Assembly: GCA_022616315.1 (NCBI GenBank)
Contig: JAKEEX010000263.1
Coordinates: 1 to 32,338, forward strand
DNA: 32,338 nucleotides
Source of the DNA: Myxococcaceae bacterium
GTDB taxonomy: Bacteria; Myxococcota; Myxococcia; Myxococcales; Myxococcaceae
Direction of reading: 5' to 3'
Positions 2,325 to 16,073 of the stretch are shown here, piece after piece. The stretch's first letter is position 1; each line of letters begins with the position of its first letter. The translations under genes and the position numbers were made by a program. The notes below the pieces were generated by a model. It saw only the letters and a program-made list of their open reading frames with translations. It was not told the DNA's origin and ran no database searches.

Positions 2325-2946
2325 CGGCAGCCCCGCGAGGGCGCACGCTGTCCCATGGAGCGGGCTTACACGAGGCCCACCCCATCCCCAGTTGGTCCAT
2401 GGTCGACACGGCGTGATTGGCGGCACACAGGCCGGCGCCCGCGTTGCCAGCTGCCGCGTCTGACCGGCCTGTATGAGCCAAAGGGAGGGAGCCTGGAGGC
2501 CTCCTCCCGGGGCTTGCTCGGTAGGGTCGTTGCCCACCCTCGCTCCGGTGCGCGCCACACCGGGGCGCCTCCTCTCTCCAGTGCGGCTCCCGCCGCCGGA
2601 AGAGGGAAGGCCCTTGCCGCGCAAGAGGCGGGCCGGAGCAGCCCTGGCTGTTGCCCGTCCTGCCTGGAGGGCCAGGAGGGCCGTCGTTGCCTCTCGCCTC
2701 CTCCACGACTGGCGGGCAGGGGACTGGGTGGTACACGGCCTGCAGCACACAGCAGCGGCGTCTCGCGCCGCGTGGAGAGCGTCCCGCCGGGGGCTGCCTG
2801 TGCTCGCGCACCGGGAGCCCAGCACCGCGCCCCGGCCGCATCCATCCGCTGCGTTCGGGAGGCGTGTGCCCTCGCGCACGGCGGCGCTCACGCACGAGTG
2901 AGGAGAAGCTGGTGATTCCCACCAGCGATGCGACTTGGAGGTGCAG
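2325..2946. other. Intergenic region without a convincing gene
   Basis: This 622-base stretch lies between two divergently transcribed genes. Open frames exist on both strands, but their translations are Arg/Ala/Pro/Gly-rich and resemble no protein family, as expected for random high-GC DNA. I saw no tRNA-like cloverleaf. Two inverted repeats stand out: an imperfect hairpin at 2483-2508 (GGGAGG against CCTCCC around an inner gcc/ggc stem) and a perfect 7-bp repeat at 2908-2926. Promoters for both flanking genes should lie here, but no convincing -35/-10 pair could be assigned by eye. Confidence 0.6.
2908..2926. promoter_or_regulatory. 7-bp inverted repeat in the leader of the copper-oxidase gene
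   Basis: GCTGGTG-ATTCC-CACCAGC is a perfect 7+7 inverted repeat with a 5-base spacer. It ends 20 bases before the ATG at 2947 and just upstream of the GGAGG ribosome site. It could be an operator half-site pair or an RNA hairpin affecting translation. Only the symmetry is seen; a role is inferred. Confidence 0.35.
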
Positions 2947-4821
2947 ATGCTCGAGGCGACCCAGGGGGAAAGAGCGCGCAGCCGCGCAGGCCCTCGGCTG
3001 CTGCTGTCACTCGCGCTTCTGACGTGCGCCTCTGCTTGGGGTCAGGGGGCGCCCTCTGAGGTGGGGCAGTGGAGCCCTCTGCTGCCCTGGCCCGACACGG
3101 GCACGCACAGCGCGGTGCTCCCCAACGGCAAGGTGCTCACCTGGACGGAGCGGGACCTCTTGCCGTTCAACCTCTGGGACCCTCTCACCGGAGCACGCAC
3201 GGAGGTCCCCCACCCCGGCTTCAATTCCTTCTGCTCCGGCCACGCCATGCTCGCCGACGGGCGCCTGCTGGTGGCGGGCGGGTACATCAAGACCGACGTG
3301 GGACCGAAGGAAGCGGGCATCTACGACCCCGAGACCGGCACCTGGACGCGGCTGCCTGAGATGAACGCGGGACGCTACTACCCGACGACCACGGCCCTCT
3401 CCAACGGGGAGATGCTGGTCATCGCGGGGACGGCCACTGCGCAGCGCGTGGGAGAGAACCGGCTGCCGCAGGTGTGGCAACCCGACAAGAACGCCTGGCG
3501 CGACCTCACCGGGGCCCAGCTGGTGATGGAGACGTACCCGTGGATGTTCGTCGCGCCCAACGGAAAGGTGTTCAAGGCGGGGACGGAGCCGGAGACCGCG
3601 TACCTGGACACCTCGGGCCTGGGCGCCTGGATGCCCGTGGCGACCAGTCACTACGGGGAGAGGAGTCACGGCAGCGCGGTGATGTACGAGCCGGGCAAGG
3701 TGATGATCAGCGGGGGCAGCGAGGGCGGGGAAGGCACCCCGACCGTGGAGGTCATCGACCTCAACGCTTCTTCTCCCGCCTGGCGCATCGTGCAGCCCAT
3801 GGCCCAGCCGCGCCAGCAGCACAACATGACGCTGCTGCCCGACGGCAAGGTGCTGGTGACGGGCGGCAGCAGTGGGCCCGGCAAGAACGACGACGGCAGC
3901 CCTGTCCACACCCCCGAGCTGTGGGACCCGGCCACCGAGACCTTCACCAAGCTCGCGCCCGACCTGCAGTACCGCGGCTATCACTCGAGTGCCGTGCTCC
4001 TGCCGGATGCCCGCGTCCTCTCCGTGGGTGGCCAGGAGATCATGGACGCGCAGATCTTCTCTCCGCCCTACCTCTTCAGGGGCCCGCGTCCCACCATCAC
4101 CTCGTCGCCCCCCTCGGTGCGCTACGGGGAGTCCTTCACCGTCGGCACCCCGGACGCGGCCTCCATCGCGCAGGTGACGTGGATCCGGCCCGGCTCGTCG
4201 ACGCATGCCTTCAACCAGGACCAGCGCCTCAACAAGCTCGGCTTCTCCAGGGAGGCAGGCGGTTTGCGCGTCACTGCGCCCGCCAACGCCAACCTCGCCA
4301 CTCCGGGGTTCTACCTGCTCTTCCTCGTCAACACCCAAGGCGTCCCCTCCGTGGGGCAGTGGGTGCGGGTGGGCGGGCCCGACGCGCAGCCGCCTGAGGA
4401 GGTGCCGCCCGTTCCCCCCGACCAGGATCCGCAGGTCGAGGAGCGCGGGGAGGAGCCGGACGTCTCCCGGACGCCGGCTGCAAGGCTGGGTGAGCCGTGT
4501 GACGCGGCCGCCGCGGCTGGCGGACAGCGTGCTTGCCAGAGCAATGCCGCCTGCGTGGGGACGCCCGGAGTGTGCCGCGTCCACTGCACGGCAGCAGCGG
4601 ACTGCGCCACCAGTGAGGTGTGCGCCCAGTTGGAGGGCCACTCCGTCTGTACCCCGGAGGCCTCGGACGGCAAGGGGGGCCGCGGGAAGGCAGCAGGAGC
4701 CTGCACCGCGGGTGGCTCCACTCCCGCAGCCATCGGCCTGCTTCTCGCTCTGGGCTGGGCGTTGCGACGGCGACAGCTGCCCCCTTCCCCCGGCAGGGAG
4801 CTACGGCCGGAGGGACCGTAG
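2947..4821 (+). CDS. Exported galactose/glyoxal-oxidase-like copper radical oxidase with MYXO-CTERM tail
   Basis: The 624-residue protein starts at ATG 2947, preceded by GGAGG at 2937-2941 with ideal spacing; an upstream in-frame TTG at 2935 lacks such a site. A signal peptide (basic, then LLLSLALLTCASA) directs export. Residues ~50-350 carry kelch-like blades (LPNGKVL, LADGRLLVAGG, LLPDGKVLVTGG) and ~380-475 match the immunoglobulin-like DUF1929 domain. Residues typical of the AA5 Cys-Tyr radical copper site are present: Cys96 (NSFCSGH), the RYY tyrosine at 144/145, Tyr345-His346 (GYHS) and His420 (STHAFNQDQR). Such enzymes oxidise alcohols or aldehydes and release H2O2. After a Pro/Glu-rich linker comes a Cys-rich module (~517-568), then a MYXO-CTERM-like end: Cys586, a hydrophobic helix and RRR, which in myxobacteria directs surface sorting. 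It appears monocistronic. The substrate is unknown. Confidence 0.87.
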   Translation: MLEATQGERARSRAGPRLLLSLALLTCASAWGQGAPSEVGQWSPLLPWPDTGTHSAVLPNGKVLTWTERDLLPFNLWDPLTGARTEVPHPGFNSFCSGHAMLADGRLLVAGGYIKTDVGPKEAGIYDPETGTWTRLPEMNAGRYYPTTTALSNGEMLVIAGTATAQRVGENRLPQVWQPDKNAWRDLTGAQLVMETYPWMFVAPNGKVFKAGTEPETAYLDTSGLGAWMPVATSHYGERSHGSAVMYEPGKVMISGGSEGGEGTPTVEVIDLNASSPAWRIVQPMAQPRQQHNMTLLPDGKVLVTGGSSGPGKNDDGSPVHTPELWDPATETFTKLAPDLQYRGYHSSAVLLPDARVLSVGGQEIMDAQIFSPPYLFRGPRPTITSSPPSVRYGESFTVGTPDAASIAQVTWIRPGSSTHAFNQDQRLNKLGFSREAGGLRVTAPANANLATPGFYLLFLVNTQGVPSVGQWVRVGGPDAQPPEEVPPVPPDQDPQVEERGEEPDVSRTPAARLGEPCDAAAAAGGQRACQSNAACVGTPGVCRVHCTAAADCATSEVCAQLEGHSVCTPEASDGKGGRGKAAGACTAGGSTPAAIGLLLALGWALRRRQLPPSPGRELRPEGP

Positions 4822-4934
4822 CCCCACCGGGGTGTCCTGCCCTGGGGGTCTTCCCTGCGCAGGCTTGCTCACACGAGGCCTGCACGAATGGGCGGCGTCA
4901 TTTCTCCCATGCCTCATCCGGCCCTGCGCTGAAG

Positions 4935-4964
4935 GGTGACTTGTACCGTCACCTCCCGGTCACC
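4935..4964. promoter_or_regulatory. GTCACC repeat cluster upstream of the sugar cassette
   Basis: GGTGAC at 4935-4940 is the exact inverse of GTCACC at 4948-4953 (7-base spacer TTGTACC), and a further direct GTCACC lies at 4959-4964. The three copies stand 35-65 bases before the first possible start of the epimerase gene. The geometry suits a dimeric regulator's operator or a leader hairpin. Only the repeat structure is seen; regulation is inferred. Confidence 0.35.
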
Positions 4965-4999
4965 ACTCTTCCGGGTGCCGCGAGGGGGGGGCGGTCGCG

Positions 5000-5896
5000 A
5001 TGACAGGGGCGAGCTCACGGCCATCGCTCAGCGCCAGTGCACACACTCCGTCCGTCGCGTCACCCCCCATGACCCTCTTGTTGACCGGCCACCGCGGTTT
5101 CATCGGCAGCGTGGTCCACCGGCTCGTGCCCGACGCGAGGGTCCTGGAGACGAAGAATCCGGGCACGGCCGAGCTGGTGGAACGGCTCCAGGGTGTCGAC
5201 TGCATCATCCATCTCGCCGGCGGCGGTGGTGCCAGGTACTGCCAGCAGCACCCCAGAGAGGCGATGGAGGGCAACGTCGTCCTGACCCATCGACTGGTCG
5301 AGGCCGCAAGACAAGCCGGTGTGAAGCGCATCATCTTCTCCTCCAGCATCGCGGTCTACGGCACCGCGAAGAGCCCTCCGAACCCGATCGCCGAGCACCA
5401 CGCTGCGACTCCCGACGACCTCTACGGGTCGCTCAAGTGGGCATGCGAGGAGATCGTCAAAGGCCTCCCCCATACGATCCTGCGCTTCTCGAACGTCTAT
5501 GGCTTCGGCACCGGCACGCACCTCGACAGGGGAGGCTTCATCAACAACGTCTGCCGGTCTGCCCGCACCACCGGAAGAATCACCCTGACGAGCTCGACGC
5601 TCGGTATGGACTTCGTCCACGTGACGGATGCGGCGAGGACCATCCTGCTCTGCGCCAGCAGCGACAGCGGCCTCGACTCCGTCATCAACATCGGAAGCGG
5701 CCAGGCCACGAGCCTCGTCCACTGCGCGCGCATCATCGAGGAGAAGCTCGATGCGCCCGTGAACGTCGTCGTGGACGAGCGGCCGGGATACCGGACACGC
5801 TACTTCGATATCGCGAGGGCAAGAGCCACGCTCGGATGGCAGCCCGTGGTGGGGCTCTCCGATGGCATCTCGGAGCTGCTCTCCAGACTCCCATGA
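5000..5896 (+). CDS. NAD-dependent nucleotide-sugar epimerase/dehydratase (extended SDR)
   Basis: This is an extended short-chain dehydrogenase/reductase of the WcaG/GalE type, acting on a nucleotide-linked sugar in the cytoplasm. Numbered from the internal ATG at 5069 (275 aa), it has the NAD(P)-binding TGHRGFIG at 6-13, HLAGG at 48-52, the catalytic serine in SSSIAVYG (~91-98), and YxxxK as Tyr119/Lys123. A C-terminal substrate domain includes MDFVHVTDAAR and NIGSG. The ATG at 5000 has a purine-rich GAGGGGGGG upstream but adds 23 residues lacking family character; 5069 begins exactly at the Rossmann strand but has no ribosome site, so the start is uncertain. Its stop overlaps the next ATG (ATGA), opening a translationally coupled four-gene cassette. 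The exact sugar is not predictable. Confidence 0.87.
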   Translation: MTGASSRPSLSASAHTPSVASPPMTLLLTGHRGFIGSVVHRLVPDARVLETKNPGTAELVERLQGVDCIIHLAGGGGARYCQQHPREAMEGNVVLTHRLVEAARQAGVKRIIFSSSIAVYGTAKSPPNPIAEHHAATPDDLYGSLKWACEEIVKGLPHTILRFSNVYGFGTGTHLDRGGFINNVCRSARTTGRITLTSSTLGMDFVHVTDAARTILLCASSDSGLDSVINIGSGQATSLVHCARIIEEKLDAPVNVVVDERPGYRTRYFDIARARATLGWQPVVGLSDGISELLSRLP

Positions 5897-6996
5897 TCCC
5901 CAACGTCAAACCCACCATCCCGGAAGCGGACATCCCGCTCATCCTCCGCGACATCAAGGAGATCCTCCTCTCGCGGCAGCTCGTCCTGGGAAGGAACCTC
6001 AGGGAGTTCGAGTCCGCCTTCAAGGACTACGTGGGCACGGCCCACGCCCTGGGCACGAGCTCCTGCTCCCAGACGCTGCAGATGCTCTTCCAGTACTTCG
6101 GCGTCGAGGACAGGGAGGTCATCCTCCCGACCCTGAACTTCATCTCCGCGGCGAACGCGGTGCTCTGGGCGGGCGGTACCCCTGTCTTCTGCGACAACGG
6201 CACGAGCTCACTCCTGCCGACCCTCGAGACCATCGAGGCGAGCAGGACCGGGCGCACGGCCGGCCTGGTCCTCGTGCACATCACCGGCCACATCAACCCC
6301 GAGCTCTCCGCAATCAAGGAGTACTGCCAGCGGGAGGGGCTGTTCCTCATCGAAGACTGCAGTCACGCCCATGGCTCGCAGATCGACGGAGTGAAGGCGG
6401 GAGCCCTCTGCGACGCGGCTGTCTTCAGCATGTTTGCCACCAAGGTCATCACCACCGGGACCGGCGGCATGTTGACCACCAACGACTCCAGGATTGCAGA
6501 TTATGTCCTCTCCGCCCGCCACCAGGGCCAGGGCCAGGACCTCACGGACTGCAGCACCATCGGCGGCGGATGGCACATGACGGAGATGGCCGCAGTGCTG
6601 GGCAGGTACCAGCTCGGCCATCTGGAGGAGTGGGTCACCCGCCGCGGCGAGCTCGCCCAGGTTTACGACAGGGCCTTCGCCAGGCACCCGAAGCTCCAGC
6701 TCCTGAAGCCCGTGGGACGGTCCGCCTACTATAAGTACCAGGTGCTGCTCTCCCCCGAGGTGGACAGGCAGTGGTTGGTGGCGCGCCTCGGCGAGCTGAA
6801 CGTGCAGTGCGGGGCCGTCTATCACCCGCCCATCCACCTGCAGCCGGTCTACCAGCGGAAGTTCAACTTCCGTGCAGGCACGTATCCCAATGCAGAGGAC
6901 GTGGCGAGGCGCGTCGTCGCCCTCCCGATGTTCGTCGAGATGACGGCAGCCGAGCAGCAGACGGTCATCGATGCGGTCCTGGGGGTCCTCCGATGA
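5893..6996 (+). CDS. DegT/DnrJ/EryC1/StrS-family PLP sugar aminotransferase
   Basis: The 367-residue protein is a PLP-dependent aminotransferase of the type that aminates keto-sugar nucleotides, usually from glutamate. Visible features are GTSSCSQTL in the cofactor phosphate region (54-62), LPTLNF (78-83), the PLP-contacting IEDCSHAHG with Asp155 (153-161), and FATKVITTGTGG with the Schiff-base lysine at 184. Length is normal for the family. It starts on the ATGA that contains the epimerase stop and ends on another ATGA shared with the WbqC gene, so translation is coupled on both sides. With the upstream epimerase it could convert a keto-sugar into an amino sugar. The family is certain; the substrate is inferred only as a nucleotide sugar. 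Confidence 0.93.
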   Translation: MIPNVKPTIPEADIPLILRDIKEILLSRQLVLGRNLREFESAFKDYVGTAHALGTSSCSQTLQMLFQYFGVEDREVILPTLNFISAANAVLWAGGTPVFCDNGTSSLLPTLETIEASRTGRTAGLVLVHITGHINPELSAIKEYCQREGLFLIEDCSHAHGSQIDGVKAGALCDAAVFSMFATKVITTGTGGMLTTNDSRIADYVLSARHQGQGQDLTDCSTIGGGWHMTEMAAVLGRYQLGHLEEWVTRRGELAQVYDRAFARHPKLQLLKPVGRSAYYKYQVLLSPEVDRQWLVARLGELNVQCGAVYHPPIHLQPVYQRKFNFRAGTYPNAEDVARRVVALPMFVEMTAAEQQTVIDAVLGVLR

Positions 6997-7685
6997 GAGC
7001 AACCATCCATCAGCCGAACTACCTCCCGAACGCAGGCTTCTTCCACAAGATCCTCCAGTGCGACCGCTACGTCGTCTACGACACGGCCCAGTTCGTCCGC
7101 AGCAGGTTCGACAACCGGAACTTCATCAAGACGAACAACGCGAAGGTCTTCATGACCGTGCCCATCACGAGCGACTCGCACTTCAAGCCGATCGCCGAGG
7201 CCAGGGTGAACAACTCCACTCCCTGGAGAGAGAAGCACTGGAAGACGCTCAAGAATGCGTACCAGAAGGCGCCGCACTTCGCGGAGCTGGCCCCGGCCCT
7301 CGAAGACGTCTACTCGACCACGCCGGTGACGCTCCCGGACATGAGCCTGCCCATCATCCGCAGGCTCCTCGCCCTCCTCGGATGGAAGGGCCAGATGGTG
7401 CTCTCGAGCGAGCTCCCTCTCGACAGGTCCCTGCGCAGCACGGACGCCATCATCGACATCCTCCGCGCAGTGAAGGCGACGTCCTACCTCGCAGGCGCCA
7501 GCTCGAAGAAGTACCTCGTGGAGGAGGCCTTCGTCCGGAGCGGTATCACCCTGGAGTATCACCACTTCAGCCCCCCCGTGTACCGCCAGCTCGGCGAGCC
7601 CTTCATTCCAAACCTCAGCGCGCTCGACCTCGTCTTCAACGAAGGGCCTGCTGCGCGAGAGATCCTCTTCGGTGCGGGTTCGTAG
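6993..7685 (+). CDS. WbqC family protein
   Basis: The 230-residue protein opens with the WbqC hallmark IHQPNYLPNAGFFHKI (5-20), followed by DTAQFVRSRFDNRNFIK (31-47), and keeps the family's conserved Asn/Arg/Lys pattern. WbqC proteins are repeatedly found in O-antigen and other polysaccharide loci; to my knowledge their reaction is not firmly settled, and a role in modifying an amino-sugar precursor is a common inference. The ATG overlaps the aminotransferase stop (ATGA at 6993-6996). An upstream extension in this frame runs antisense-like inside the aminotransferase and is not credible. Base composition is visibly less GC-rich here than in the flanking genes. Confidence 0.88.
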   Translation: MRATIHQPNYLPNAGFFHKILQCDRYVVYDTAQFVRSRFDNRNFIKTNNAKVFMTVPITSDSHFKPIAEARVNNSTPWREKHWKTLKNAYQKAPHFAELAPALEDVYSTTPVTLPDMSLPIIRRLLALLGWKGQMVLSSELPLDRSLRSTDAIIDILRAVKATSYLAGASSKKYLVEEAFVRSGITLEYHHFSPPVYRQLGEPFIPNLSALDLVFNEGPAAREILFGAGS

Positions 7686-7730
7686 GACAGCGTGTGGAGA
7701 CGCAGCAATCCACCCGGGGGTGCGGGCGTC

Positions 7731-8339
7731 ATGAGAGTCCTGGTCCTGGCAGCACATCCTGATGACGCAGAGGTCGGATGTGGAGGAACCATCGCCAAGT
7801 ATGCCCTGCAGGGGCACACGGTGAGGATCGCCACGACAGTCGTCCCTTCGCTGCACGACGTCCGGATCGAGGAGTCGGAGGCCGCCGCCCGGATCCTCGG
7901 CGTGGAGCATGTGTGCCTCGACATCCCGCCCGACGAGATGGTCTTCAACCGGTCCATCGTGGGGCGCTTCGATCAGGCCATCTCCGCGTTCTGCCCGGAC
8001 CTGATCCTGACGCACTGGGTCCACGACTCCCACAATGACCACCAGGTGGTGGCCAATGCCACGGTCGCAGCGTCGAGGAAGAACTCCTGCAGTCTCTACA
8101 TGTATGAGCAGACCATTCCGGGCGGCATCACGTCATGCTCGTTCCGGGCACAGAAATACGTCGACATCACGTCCACGATCGAGAAGAAGCTCGAGGCGAT
8201 CAAGGCGCATGCGTCGCAGATGAGTCTTCACGGCGACTGGTGGCTGTACGGCATCCGCGGGCGCGCTCAGTATCGGGGTTTTCAGATCAAGAAGAAATAC
8301 GCCGAGGCGTTCGAGACCATCAAAGACATAGAGCTGTGA
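7731..8339 (+). CDS. PIG-L/LmbE-family zinc-dependent N-deacetylase
   Basis: The 202-residue protein begins MRVLVLAAHPDDAEVG, the PIG-L signature whose His9, Asp11 and Asp12 supply zinc ligand and catalytic base. HDSHNDHQ at about 101-108 gives the second motif. Family members remove N-acetyl from GlcNAc-type sugars on lipids, thiols or glycans. The ATG at 7731 follows a GGGGG stretch and places the motif correctly; an in-frame GTG at 7692 only adds residues lacking family character. It is the last gene of the 5000-8339 cassette, 45 bases after WbqC, and its stop lies 4 bases from the convergent carbonic anhydrase gene. In context it may expose an amine on the sugar made by the upstream enzymes (inference). 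Confidence 0.9.
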   Translation: MRVLVLAAHPDDAEVGCGGTIAKYALQGHTVRIATTVVPSLHDVRIEESEAAARILGVEHVCLDIPPDEMVFNRSIVGRFDQAISAFCPDLILTHWVHDSHNDHQVVANATVAASRKNSCSLYMYEQTIPGGITSCSFRAQKYVDITSTIEKKLEAIKAHASQMSLHGDWWLYGIRGRAQYRGFQIKKKYAEAFETIKDIEL

Positions 8340-14213: not shown

Positions 14214-16073
14214 ATGCGCGCGCCCCTGTTCGCCCTGCTGCTTCTCGCCGTCCCCGCCCTGGCCGCCTCACCGGCGCCGCAGGACACGCGGACGTGGCAC
14301 CGGCTCGTCGGCATCCTCCAGTACCTGGAGGCGGATTACCCGATGGCGGTGGAGTCGAAGTCGGAGTTCGAGCTCGCCGAGCAGCGCAGCTTCGCCGCTG
14401 AAGCGGTGGAGGCACTGAAGGAGATTGGGCCCGCGGGCGCCGGCTTCGTTCCGCGCATGTTGGCCATCAAGGCAAGGGTGGACCGGGCCGAGGAGCCCGA
14501 GGCCGTGAGCCATGACTGCGGCAGGCTCGCCGAGGAACTGGTGCTCGCGGGTGGCCTCACGCGCTCGCCCCGCCAGCCACCGTCGCTCGAGCGCGGCGCC
14601 CAGGTGTTCGCCGCGTCGTGCACGGCCTGCCACGGCGCGGACGGCAGCGGCAAGGTGCCCATCGCAGAGACCATGGAGCCGCGCCCGGCAAACTTCCTCG
14701 ACGGCGAAGTCATGGGCGGGCTCATGCCGTACAAGGCCTTCAACACCACCAGCTTCGGCGTCACCGGGACGGCCATGGCGGCCTTCCCTACGCTCTCGGA
14801 CGAGGACCGCTGGAGCGTCGCCTTCTACCTCTTCACGCTTCGCCAGCCCGGGTGCGACCACAAGCCGCCGAGGGTGACGCTCGAGGAGCTGGCCACCTCC
14901 ACCGACGCCGACCTGGTGGCGAAGTACGGCGAGAAGGAGCTCGCGTGCCTCCGCCGGACGATTCCGGACGTGGATGAGGAGCGCTCGCTGCTCATCGCGC
15001 GCGGCGGCGTGGAGGACGCGTTGCGGCTCGCTGCCGAGGGCAATGCCACGGCCGCACGCCAGGCGCTGCTCGACGCCTACCTGATGGGACTGGAGCCGGT
15101 GGAGGCCAAGCTGCGCATGCGCGGCCCCACCGTGGTGGACGAGCTCGAGAAGGCCTTCCTCCGCACCCGGGTGGCGTTCGAGCAGGGCAGCCCCCGCGCC
15201 GCGGACGAGGGGAAGGTACTGCTCTCCATGCTCGACAAGGCACGCCGCTCGAGCGGGGGCACGCCCGACTTCCTCGCAGTGCTCGGAATGACGCTGCTCA
15301 TCCTCCTGCGCGAGGGCTTCGAGGCCACGGTGGTGGTGGCGGCGCTACTCGCCGCGCTGAAGAAGATGGGCACGCCGGACCACGCGCGCGTGGTGCACGT
15401 CGGCTGGGTGTCCGCGCTGCTCGTCGGTGCGGTGGCCTTCCTCTTCGGACGGCACCTCCTCGCGGGCGCCAACCAGGAGCTGATGGAGGGCGTGGTGGCC
15501 CTCGTGGCGGTGGCGATGCTCCTCTACGCCGCGCTGTGGCTCAACGCGCGCGCCAACATCCGCGTCTTCATGGGCGAGCTGCGCCAGAAGATGCAGGGCG
15601 CGCTCGGTCGCGGCAGCATGGCGAGCCTCTTCATCGTCTCCTTCTCCGCGGTGCTGCGCGAGAGCTTCGAGACGGCGGTGTTCCTGCAGGGGCTCGCGGT
15701 GGACAGCGTGTCCGGCGTGGCGTGGGGCTCGGTGGCAGGTGTGCTGCTGATGCTTGGCTTCGTGTTCCTCATCAACCGCGTGGGCTACGTGCTGCCCATG
15801 AAGACGCTGTTCTCCGCGTCCACGGTGCTGCTCGTGGCCACCGCCGTCGTGCTGCTCGGCAAGGGCCTCCATGCGCTCCAGGAGGTGGGGATGATGCCTC
15901 TCGCCCCCATCGGGAAGGGCAGCTTCTCCGTCGAGTTTCTCGGCGTGTACGCGGATGTGGTGTCCCTCGTGCCTCAGCTGGTGCTGACGCTTGTGTCCCT
16001 CGCGTACGTCGGGCTCCATCGCATGGGGTGGTGGCCCGGGAGCGGAAGCCGCACGGCAGCGCAGGCGCGCTGA
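14214..16073 (+). CDS. Cytochrome c-FTR1 iron permease fusion
   Basis: This 619-residue protein couples a periplasmic heme domain to an FTR1/EfeU-type high-affinity iron permease. After a signal peptide (LFALLLLAVPALAA) comes a helical region, then cytochrome c with CTACH (Cys136, Cys139, His140) and a probable axial Met188 (GTAMAAF). From ~353 on there are about seven membrane helices with the two FTR1 motifs REGFE (366-370) and RESFE (482-486), which bind Fe(III). Family knowledge suggests Fe(II) is oxidised before transport; the fused heme domain may supply that electron step (inference). The ATG lies downstream of a clear Fur box, so iron repression is likely. The gene appears monocistronic; its stop is 27 bases from the convergent Nudix-MBL gene's stop. 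The ribosome site is weak (ACGGGGCC). Confidence 0.92.
   Translation: MRAPLFALLLLAVPALAASPAPQDTRTWHRLVGILQYLEADYPMAVESKSEFELAEQRSFAAEAVEALKEIGPAGAGFVPRMLAIKARVDRAEEPEAVSHDCGRLAEELVLAGGLTRSPRQPPSLERGAQVFAASCTACHGADGSGKVPIAETMEPRPANFLDGEVMGGLMPYKAFNTTSFGVTGTAMAAFPTLSDEDRWSVAFYLFTLRQPGCDHKPPRVTLEELATSTDADLVAKYGEKELACLRRTIPDVDEERSLLIARGGVEDALRLAAEGNATAARQALLDAYLMGLEPVEAKLRMRGPTVVDELEKAFLRTRVAFEQGSPRAADEGKVLLSMLDKARRSSGGTPDFLAVLGMTLLILLREGFEATVVVAALLAALKKMGTPDHARVVHVGWVSALLVGAVAFLFGRHLLAGANQELMEGVVALVAVAMLLYAALWLNARANIRVFMGELRQKMQGALGRGSMASLFIVSFSAVLRESFETAVFLQGLAVDSVSGVAWGSVAGVLLMLGFVFLINRVGYVLPMKTLFSASTVLLVATAVVLLGKGLHALQEVGMMPLAPIGKGSFSVEFLGVYADVVSLVPQLVLTLVSLAYVGLHRMGWWPGSGSRTAAQAR

Follow-up and report, generated by a model that had tools for sequence, protein, structure and literature searches.

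In copper radical oxidases, the stacking tryptophan is held to control both the stability of the radical and the maturation of the enzyme. Here we describe a gene for a putative enzyme of this kind in which a tyrosine stands in the place of that tryptophan. It lies at positions 2947-4821 of a 32,338-nucleotide stretch of DNA from a Myxococcaceae bacterium (contig JAKEEX010000263.1, assembly GCA_022616315.1), and the whole of this stretch is hereafter called the window. The first-pass annotation, made from the sequence alone, presented such enzymes as best known from fungi and plants, which is overstated: FbfB of the myxobacterium Stigmatella aurantiaca, a putative galactose oxidase in fruiting body formation, was reported in 1998 (extracts of PMC3543389), and structures of Streptomyces GlxA have been solved. 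Judged from its sequence, the window protein is of a known bacterial enzyme kind, and what is new is the replacement of its second-shell tryptophan by tyrosine.

GlxA of Streptomyces (SCO2837 / S. lividans; PDB 4unm) resembles the window protein in being bacterial and in combining a propeller and an E-set domain with the same ligand set, and it is described as surface-associated (extracts of PMC3543389 and PMC13094651). In both proteins the residue of the stacking site directly precedes the cross-link tyrosine; in GlxA this is Trp288, described as critical and lying at a different place in the chain from Trp290 of galactose oxidase (extracts of PMC13094651), whereas the window protein has Tyr144 and reaches 221.6 bits against the GlxA equivalog NF052501, whose cut-off is 800. 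The likeness to FbfB, which is known to us by its description, extends to a myxobacterial origin and a galactose-oxidase-like protein; fbfB has a divergent glycosyltransferase gene beside it (extracts of PMC3543389) and the window gene does not. In the fungal AA5_1 enzyme FgrAldOx (9n3u), the second-shell tryptophan is again the residue directly before the cross-link tyrosine (W509-Y510; extracts of PMC13094651), as Tyr144-Tyr145 are consecutive in the window protein, the difference being Trp where the latter has Tyr. The fungal AA5_2 enzymes (1gof; CgrAAO; CgrAlcOx), which include galactose and alcohol oxidases, align to the window model at Z scores of about 50, and CgrAAO also has a second-shell tyrosine (extracts of PMC11267884); they differ in that the counterparts of their W290 and R330 are absent from the window protein and, as far as the extracts describe it, in that they draw the stacking residue from elsewhere in the chain. 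The galactose oxidase of Pseudoarthrobacter siccitolerans (9g43) is the best PDB match in both fold and sequence, but it is of the galactose-oxidase type, with a W290-like GGSW motif and Gly before the cross-link tyrosine.

Active-site residues and the change at position 144

Fold and first-shell residues support the assignment of the predicted gene product to the AA5-type copper radical oxidases. In Pfam, GO-like_E_set scores 96.3 bits and Glyoxal_oxid_N, a likeness to fungal AA5_1, scores 43.8 bits; both exceed their cut-offs, as do five kelch models. The propeller and GO-like E-set domain of AA5 copper radical oxidases were found by Pfam, in the structural model and by PDB alignment. The AlphaFold2 model, built from eight sequences, is confident over most of residues 32-477 except loop 163-166, the tail being of low confidence. 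Its top match in the PDB is 9g43 (Z 53.1, root-mean-square deviation 1.6, 430 aligned), with further matches to 1gof (Z 50.4), GlxA (4unm, Z 50.3) and FgrAldOx (9n3u, Z 44.1, 26% identity), and the matches below the AA5 enzymes begin at Z 23.6. The nearest solved relatives by sequence are the Pseudoarthrobacter galactose oxidase, GlxA and the fungal galactose oxidases. Structural alignment to enzymes of the galactose and glyoxal oxidase type, which the first-pass annotation had proposed as a check, gives Z scores of 44-53 against the solved AA5 enzymes. All five Cys, Tyr and His residues fall in active-site columns, and the residue numbers in that annotation (Cys96, the RYY tyrosine, which is Tyr145, Tyr345-His346 and His420) are exact.

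For residue counts on 146 fetched loci, a row had to span 80% or more of residues 90-430. This left 121 distinct sequences, the window protein included, and set aside 20 of the 141 distinct rows before counting, L013/L105 and L024 among them; a separate MAFFT alignment of the 121 sequences gave identical counts. FgrGalOx numbering was read from the 1gof alignment and transferred through L096, by which C228, N245, G271, Y272 and W290 correspond to C96, Y113, Y144, Y145 and A163 of the window protein. The gene, its two main domains and its active-site residues are placed as follows.

2947-4821 (+): predicted copper radical oxidase gene (P0001), 624 amino acids, ATG start, stop at 4821; open reading frame (ORF), Pfam, sequence and fold matches
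3058-4080 (+): kelch beta-propeller of seven blades, residues about 38-378; Pfam kelch matches, model and PDB alignment
3232-3234 (+): Cys96, predicted thioether partner in the cofactor (FgrGalOx C228); Cys in 118 of 121 sequences
3283-3285 (+): Tyr113, at the site of N245 in FgrGalOx; 82 of the 121 sequences have His here and no other has Tyr
3376-3378 (+): Tyr144, codon TAC, replacing the second-shell Trp (GlxA W288 / FgrAldOx W509); alignments
3379-3381 (+): Tyr145, predicted cross-link tyrosine (FgrGalOx Y272); 121 of 121
3979-3984 (+): Tyr345-His346, axial Tyr and first His ligand; 121 of 121
4087-4371 (+): GO-like E-set domain, residues 381-475; PF09118, 96.3 bits
4204-4206 (+): His420, second His ligand, within the E-set domain; 121 of 121

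Cys96 and Tyr145 occupy the columns of the C228/Y272 thioether pair, and the copper ligands, axial Tyr345 with His346 and His420, are all present; on these alignments, the first-shell match is far beyond chance. All residues of the first shell are kept, but the claim of a complete active site fails at the second, where the tryptophan is gone (Tyr144) and no W290-type tryptophan is found.

At the GlxA/AA5_1-type position, where the alignment shows the GlxA motif RWY, the putative second-shell aromatic, assigned by sequence position, is Tyr144 instead of Trp. Among the 118 sequences whose first shell is intact in all five residues, position 144 is Trp in 110, Gly or Ala in five and Tyr in three (the window protein, L116 and L131). 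The Gly/Ala sequences are of the galactose-oxidase type and carry GGSW in four cases, L137 being without it. Both known places for a stacking tryptophan are without one in the window protein (Tyr144 and Ala163), and the same is true of L116, L131 and L137. Sequencing error is an unlikely origin of Tyr144, since the step from TGG to TAC takes two base changes. Tyr113, the other unusual residue, is located one blade before Tyr144.

Compared with 79 other ligand-complete rows (loci with numbers up to L095), the window protein has a single change, that of Trp144, among the 58 positions whose conservation reaches 98%. With the threshold lowered to 90%, 115 positions qualify; the window protein differs at 7 of them and its paralogues at 6, 7 and 8. 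Because just this one near-invariant position has changed and 57 are kept, the rest of the protein is, by this comparison, under constraint. With column 144 masked, the three Tyr144 sequences fall in three separate places on a quick tree, built with no bootstrap, on which the joins of L116 and L131 are flagged as long branches meeting. Since these two ligand-complete sequences lie far apart on it, Tyr144 recurs in otherwise intact enzymes. The contig of L131 comes from a viral collection and may be a conjugative element, because it carries a CagE/TrbE/VirB match (L131:8126-10621; 28.2 bits, cut-off 21).

The W290/R330 pair is given as the key indicator of galactose 6-oxidases (extracts of PMC11267884). 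It is missing here, A163 standing at the W290 position and no Arg occurring within residues 188-199, and on this criterion a galactose 6-oxidase identity was rejected. Natural replacements of the stacking Trp by Phe and Tyr are known in fungal AA5_2 enzymes (extracts of PMC13094651), and in CgrAAO, whose second-shell residue is Tyr334, the exchange Y334W lowered aryl-alcohol activity and raised galactose activity (extracts of PMC11267884). Because CgrAAO works with Tyr334, a second-shell tyrosine is compatible with activity; and because W290/R330 are missing and Tyr334 has this effect in CgrAAO, an oxidase of non-galactose, small or aromatic alcohols or aldehydes would be expected, if the window enzyme is active. 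A literature search named no bacterial second-shell variant among the titles listed, which does not prove absence from print, and the passages found describe Trp alone at the GlxA/AA5_1-type position.

Departures from the usual residues were also seen in other sequences. Three loci of one related genus (L028, L082 and L085) have Cys96 replaced by Gly and Trp144 by Arg, with the other four first-shell residues kept; in these sequences the two residues look to have been lost jointly, as if one unit, and of the two the window protein keeps only Cys96. In a Candidatus Eisenbacteria relative (L013:9860-11764; the same in L105), RYY occurs together with a kelch insert, and the axial Tyr is exchanged for Glu; in L024 it is exchanged for Asp.

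Paralogues, surface sorting and gene neighbourhood

The source genome contains four oxidase copies, of which the window copy is 61-65% identical to the other three; these all carry Trp at 144, and the window protein clusters with them on the masked tree (Shimodaira-Hasegawa approximate likelihood ratio test value of 100). At E 1e-50, the 96 genomes sampled from this family include at least 37 with oxidase genes, the source genome among them, and a phylum sample of 195 genomes includes at least 42, of which 37 are those family genomes again. At E 1e-80, the phylum of G195 has such genes in at least 16 of 347 genomes and that of G197 in at least 7 of 337, G195 and G197 themselves counted. These are lower bounds, just 3 to 18 first-look candidates having been scored per genome. 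A 919-residue copper radical oxidase with the five ligand residues and Trp was also seen on a viral contig from a metagenome (L133:4833-7592, and the match recurs in L134). Its neighbours are phage-type (a single-strand DNA binding protein, a UvsX-like recombinase, a topoisomerase II large subunit and a nucleotidyltransferase), and it is probably phage-borne.

The remaining features of the window gene concern translation, export and the C-terminal region.

2937-2941 (+): GGAGG, Shine-Dalgarno-like, 5 bases 5′ of the ATG; sequence
2947-3036 (+): predicted signal peptide, residues about 1-30, with basic start, hydrophobic core LLLSLALL and ASA; read by eye, cleavage site putative
4498-4650 (+): Cys-rich module, residues 518-568, eight Cys; sequence, predicted local distance difference test below 50 in the model
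4702-4776 (+): MYXO-CTERM-like tail, residues 586-610, with Cys586, helix 593-608 and Arg607-609; TIGR03901 below cut-off, low-confidence model helix

The model draws an N-terminal helix (17-31) at low confidence. The Cys-rich stretch that the first-pass annotation reported is present; Pfam lists 14 families for the protein at E 1, and the best-matching stretch of each lies outside this module. Scans found no promoter or terminator match in 2600-5300 and no Rfam match at the gathering threshold.

A MYXO-CTERM tail is defined by an invariant Cys, a hydrophobic helix and an Arg-rich end (extracts of PMC11980579), and the sequence, together with the low-confidence model, has all three parts (Cys586, hydrophobic helix 593-608, RRR 607-609). 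The sorting protease myxosortase MrtX is encoded in the genome (NF040593, 384.9 bits, cut-off 180). The tail scores 10.1 bits with TIGR03901 in the protein scan and 14.3 bits in the genome scan, the cut-off being 20; eight of the 25 matches listed in the genome scan exceed it, including paralogue C606 at 22.8, and paralogues C300 and C210 score 15.2 and 13.7. The earlier suggestion of a MYXO-CTERM-like tail is thus borne out in its Cys, helix, Arg and MrtX, with a score under the cut-off, and the surface display that it implied is plausible from the sequence. The C606 oxidase is part of a single frame of 1967 codons (L007:1105-7005, +). Past the MYXO-CTERM tail of the oxidase this frame continues with choice-of-anchor-D repeats and with a stretch that resembles a MIDAS adhesin but scores below cut-off, and it would be either a fusion or the product of a lost stop between two genes.

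Of the fetched loci, 20 (18 distinct places by coordinates) have a divergent glycosyltransferase of the GT2 family (chitin-synthase-like) adjoining the oxidase gene, an arrangement that matches the one reported for fbfB (extracts of PMC3543389) and recalls the CslA-GlxA pair (extracts of PMC11022532). It is absent from the window gene and from its paralogue loci L006-L008. Genes for MbnP and CCP/MauG proteins were found beside other oxidases.

L017-L022, L051, L052, L054, L058, L060, L061, L063, L064, L067, L070, L077-L079, L081: oxidase loci adjoined by GT2
L006:6316-8403 (-), L007:344-1231 (-), L125-L130: MbnP and CCP/MauG genes beside oxidases

The sole MbnP match of the source genome (E 1e-5) adjoins paralogue C606, and a CCP/MauG di-haem gene lies directly 3′ of paralogue C210 on the same strand, the frames being 4 bases apart and its likely ATG about 90 bases further on; PF03150 has four matches in this genome, at three loci. 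A CCP/MauG ORF abuts the oxidase in six of the seven oxidase-bearing genomes of the G197 phylum, and in five of the six that ORF also contains an MbnP segment; none was found abutting it in the seventh, G197. MbnH/MauG proteins modify partner proteins using peroxide. These neighbours are possible maturation or peroxide-using partners of the oxidases, and parallels exist in DtpA with GlxA (extracts of PMC4736821) and in the fungal AlcOx-peroxidase tandem (extracts of PMC9770985). None of the titles listed in a literature search has MbnP, and the single paper found by a further search concerns methanobactins, which does not prove absence from print.

Downstream of the window gene and on its strand, an epimerase, a DegT aminotransferase, WbqC and PIG-L stand in a row (5000-8339), in a part of the window with a low guanine-plus-cytosine content (0.65-0.68). 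A link between the oxidase and this sugar cassette was rejected: the 11 flanking window ORFs compared have no blastp match (E 1e-5) in the fetched loci beyond the window's own DNA, where all 11 match themselves, a comparison limited by flanks of just about 1.5 kb in many loci. Elsewhere in the window, 14214-16073 encodes a fusion of an FTR1-type iron permease with a cytochrome c domain.

Function of the tyrosine-bearing site

We give an even chance to the protein being an active, secreted and lipid-anchored GlxA-like AA5 alcohol/aldehyde oxidase with a shifted substrate range. It would be exported and then lipid-anchored at the cell surface; Tyr345, His346, His420 and Tyr145 would bind copper, upon which the Cys96-Tyr145 thioether radical would form; and primary alcohol or aldehyde groups would be oxidised with O2 and H2O2 released, from which we infer H2O2 production at the cell surface. 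With Tyr144 in the place of the stacking tryptophan, and with the unusual Tyr113, the radical would be less stabilised, and the substrate range may have moved from galactose toward small or aromatic alcohols and aldehydes. The enzyme may have a role in surface glycan or in development.

Our more specific reading, held tentatively and at somewhat less than even chance, is a tyrosine-stacked copper radical oxidase in which Trp144Tyr together with Tyr113 would leave a working cofactor with a changed radical potential and substrate range. In this reading the swap seems to have arisen independently three times or more, and the four paralogues would have separate tasks according to their second-shell residue and C-terminal module. 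Several observations weigh against the broader reading of an active, lipid-anchored oxidase. The MYXO-CTERM score lies under the cut-off, no GT2 gene adjoins the window gene, the 20 window ORFs scanned include neither MbnP nor CCP/MauG, and CgrAAO is an imperfect precedent for Tyr144, its tyrosine coming from a different region of the chain. Among the four paralogues, the end branch of the window protein is also the longest (0.34 vs 0.22-0.26), which favours the main rival, a serious one that we nevertheless rate as rather unlikely: a crippled or non-catalytic paralogue that lost the stacking tryptophan after duplication, matures slowly or not at all and acts as a surface copper- or glycan-binding kelch protein. 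Such a loss of function would fit the critical part ascribed to Trp288 in GlxA, the existence and persistence of cofactor-less forms lacking both Trp144 and Cys96 (L028, L082 and L085), and the absence from the window copy of a roughly 300-residue region that follows the E-set domain in the other three copies. It fits poorly with the retention of Cys96 and all ligands, with the near-invariant positions kept elsewhere in the protein and with two further Tyr144 enzymes that have all five first-shell residues.

There is a small chance that the protein is an ordinary GlxA/FbfB-like oxidase, with a conservative Tyr for Trp and a substrate and role like those of its paralogues. The aromatic side chain retained at 144 and the 61-65% identity to the three Trp-bearing paralogues favour this, but 110 of the 118 ligand-complete sequences retain Trp, the second change, Tyr113, is found in no other of the 121, and the C-terminal architecture is unlike that of the paralogues. 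A kelch protein resembling AA5 enzymes solely in fold is very improbable: kelch-like proteins are apparently common, with up to 163 non-passing first-look candidates in one family genome, but the E-set domain, the five ligand residues and the gap between Z 44-53 to AA5 enzymes and 23.6 for the next matches contradict this candidate, which was rejected.

A natural replacement at the GlxA/AA5_1-type position amounts to a natural test of the role of the stacking tryptophan, for which the three Trp-bearing paralogues of the same genome are built-in controls. If the window enzyme is active, the roles for which the tryptophan is necessary would become separable from those that it merely improves; if it is inactive, it would be an example of bacteria reusing the scaffold.
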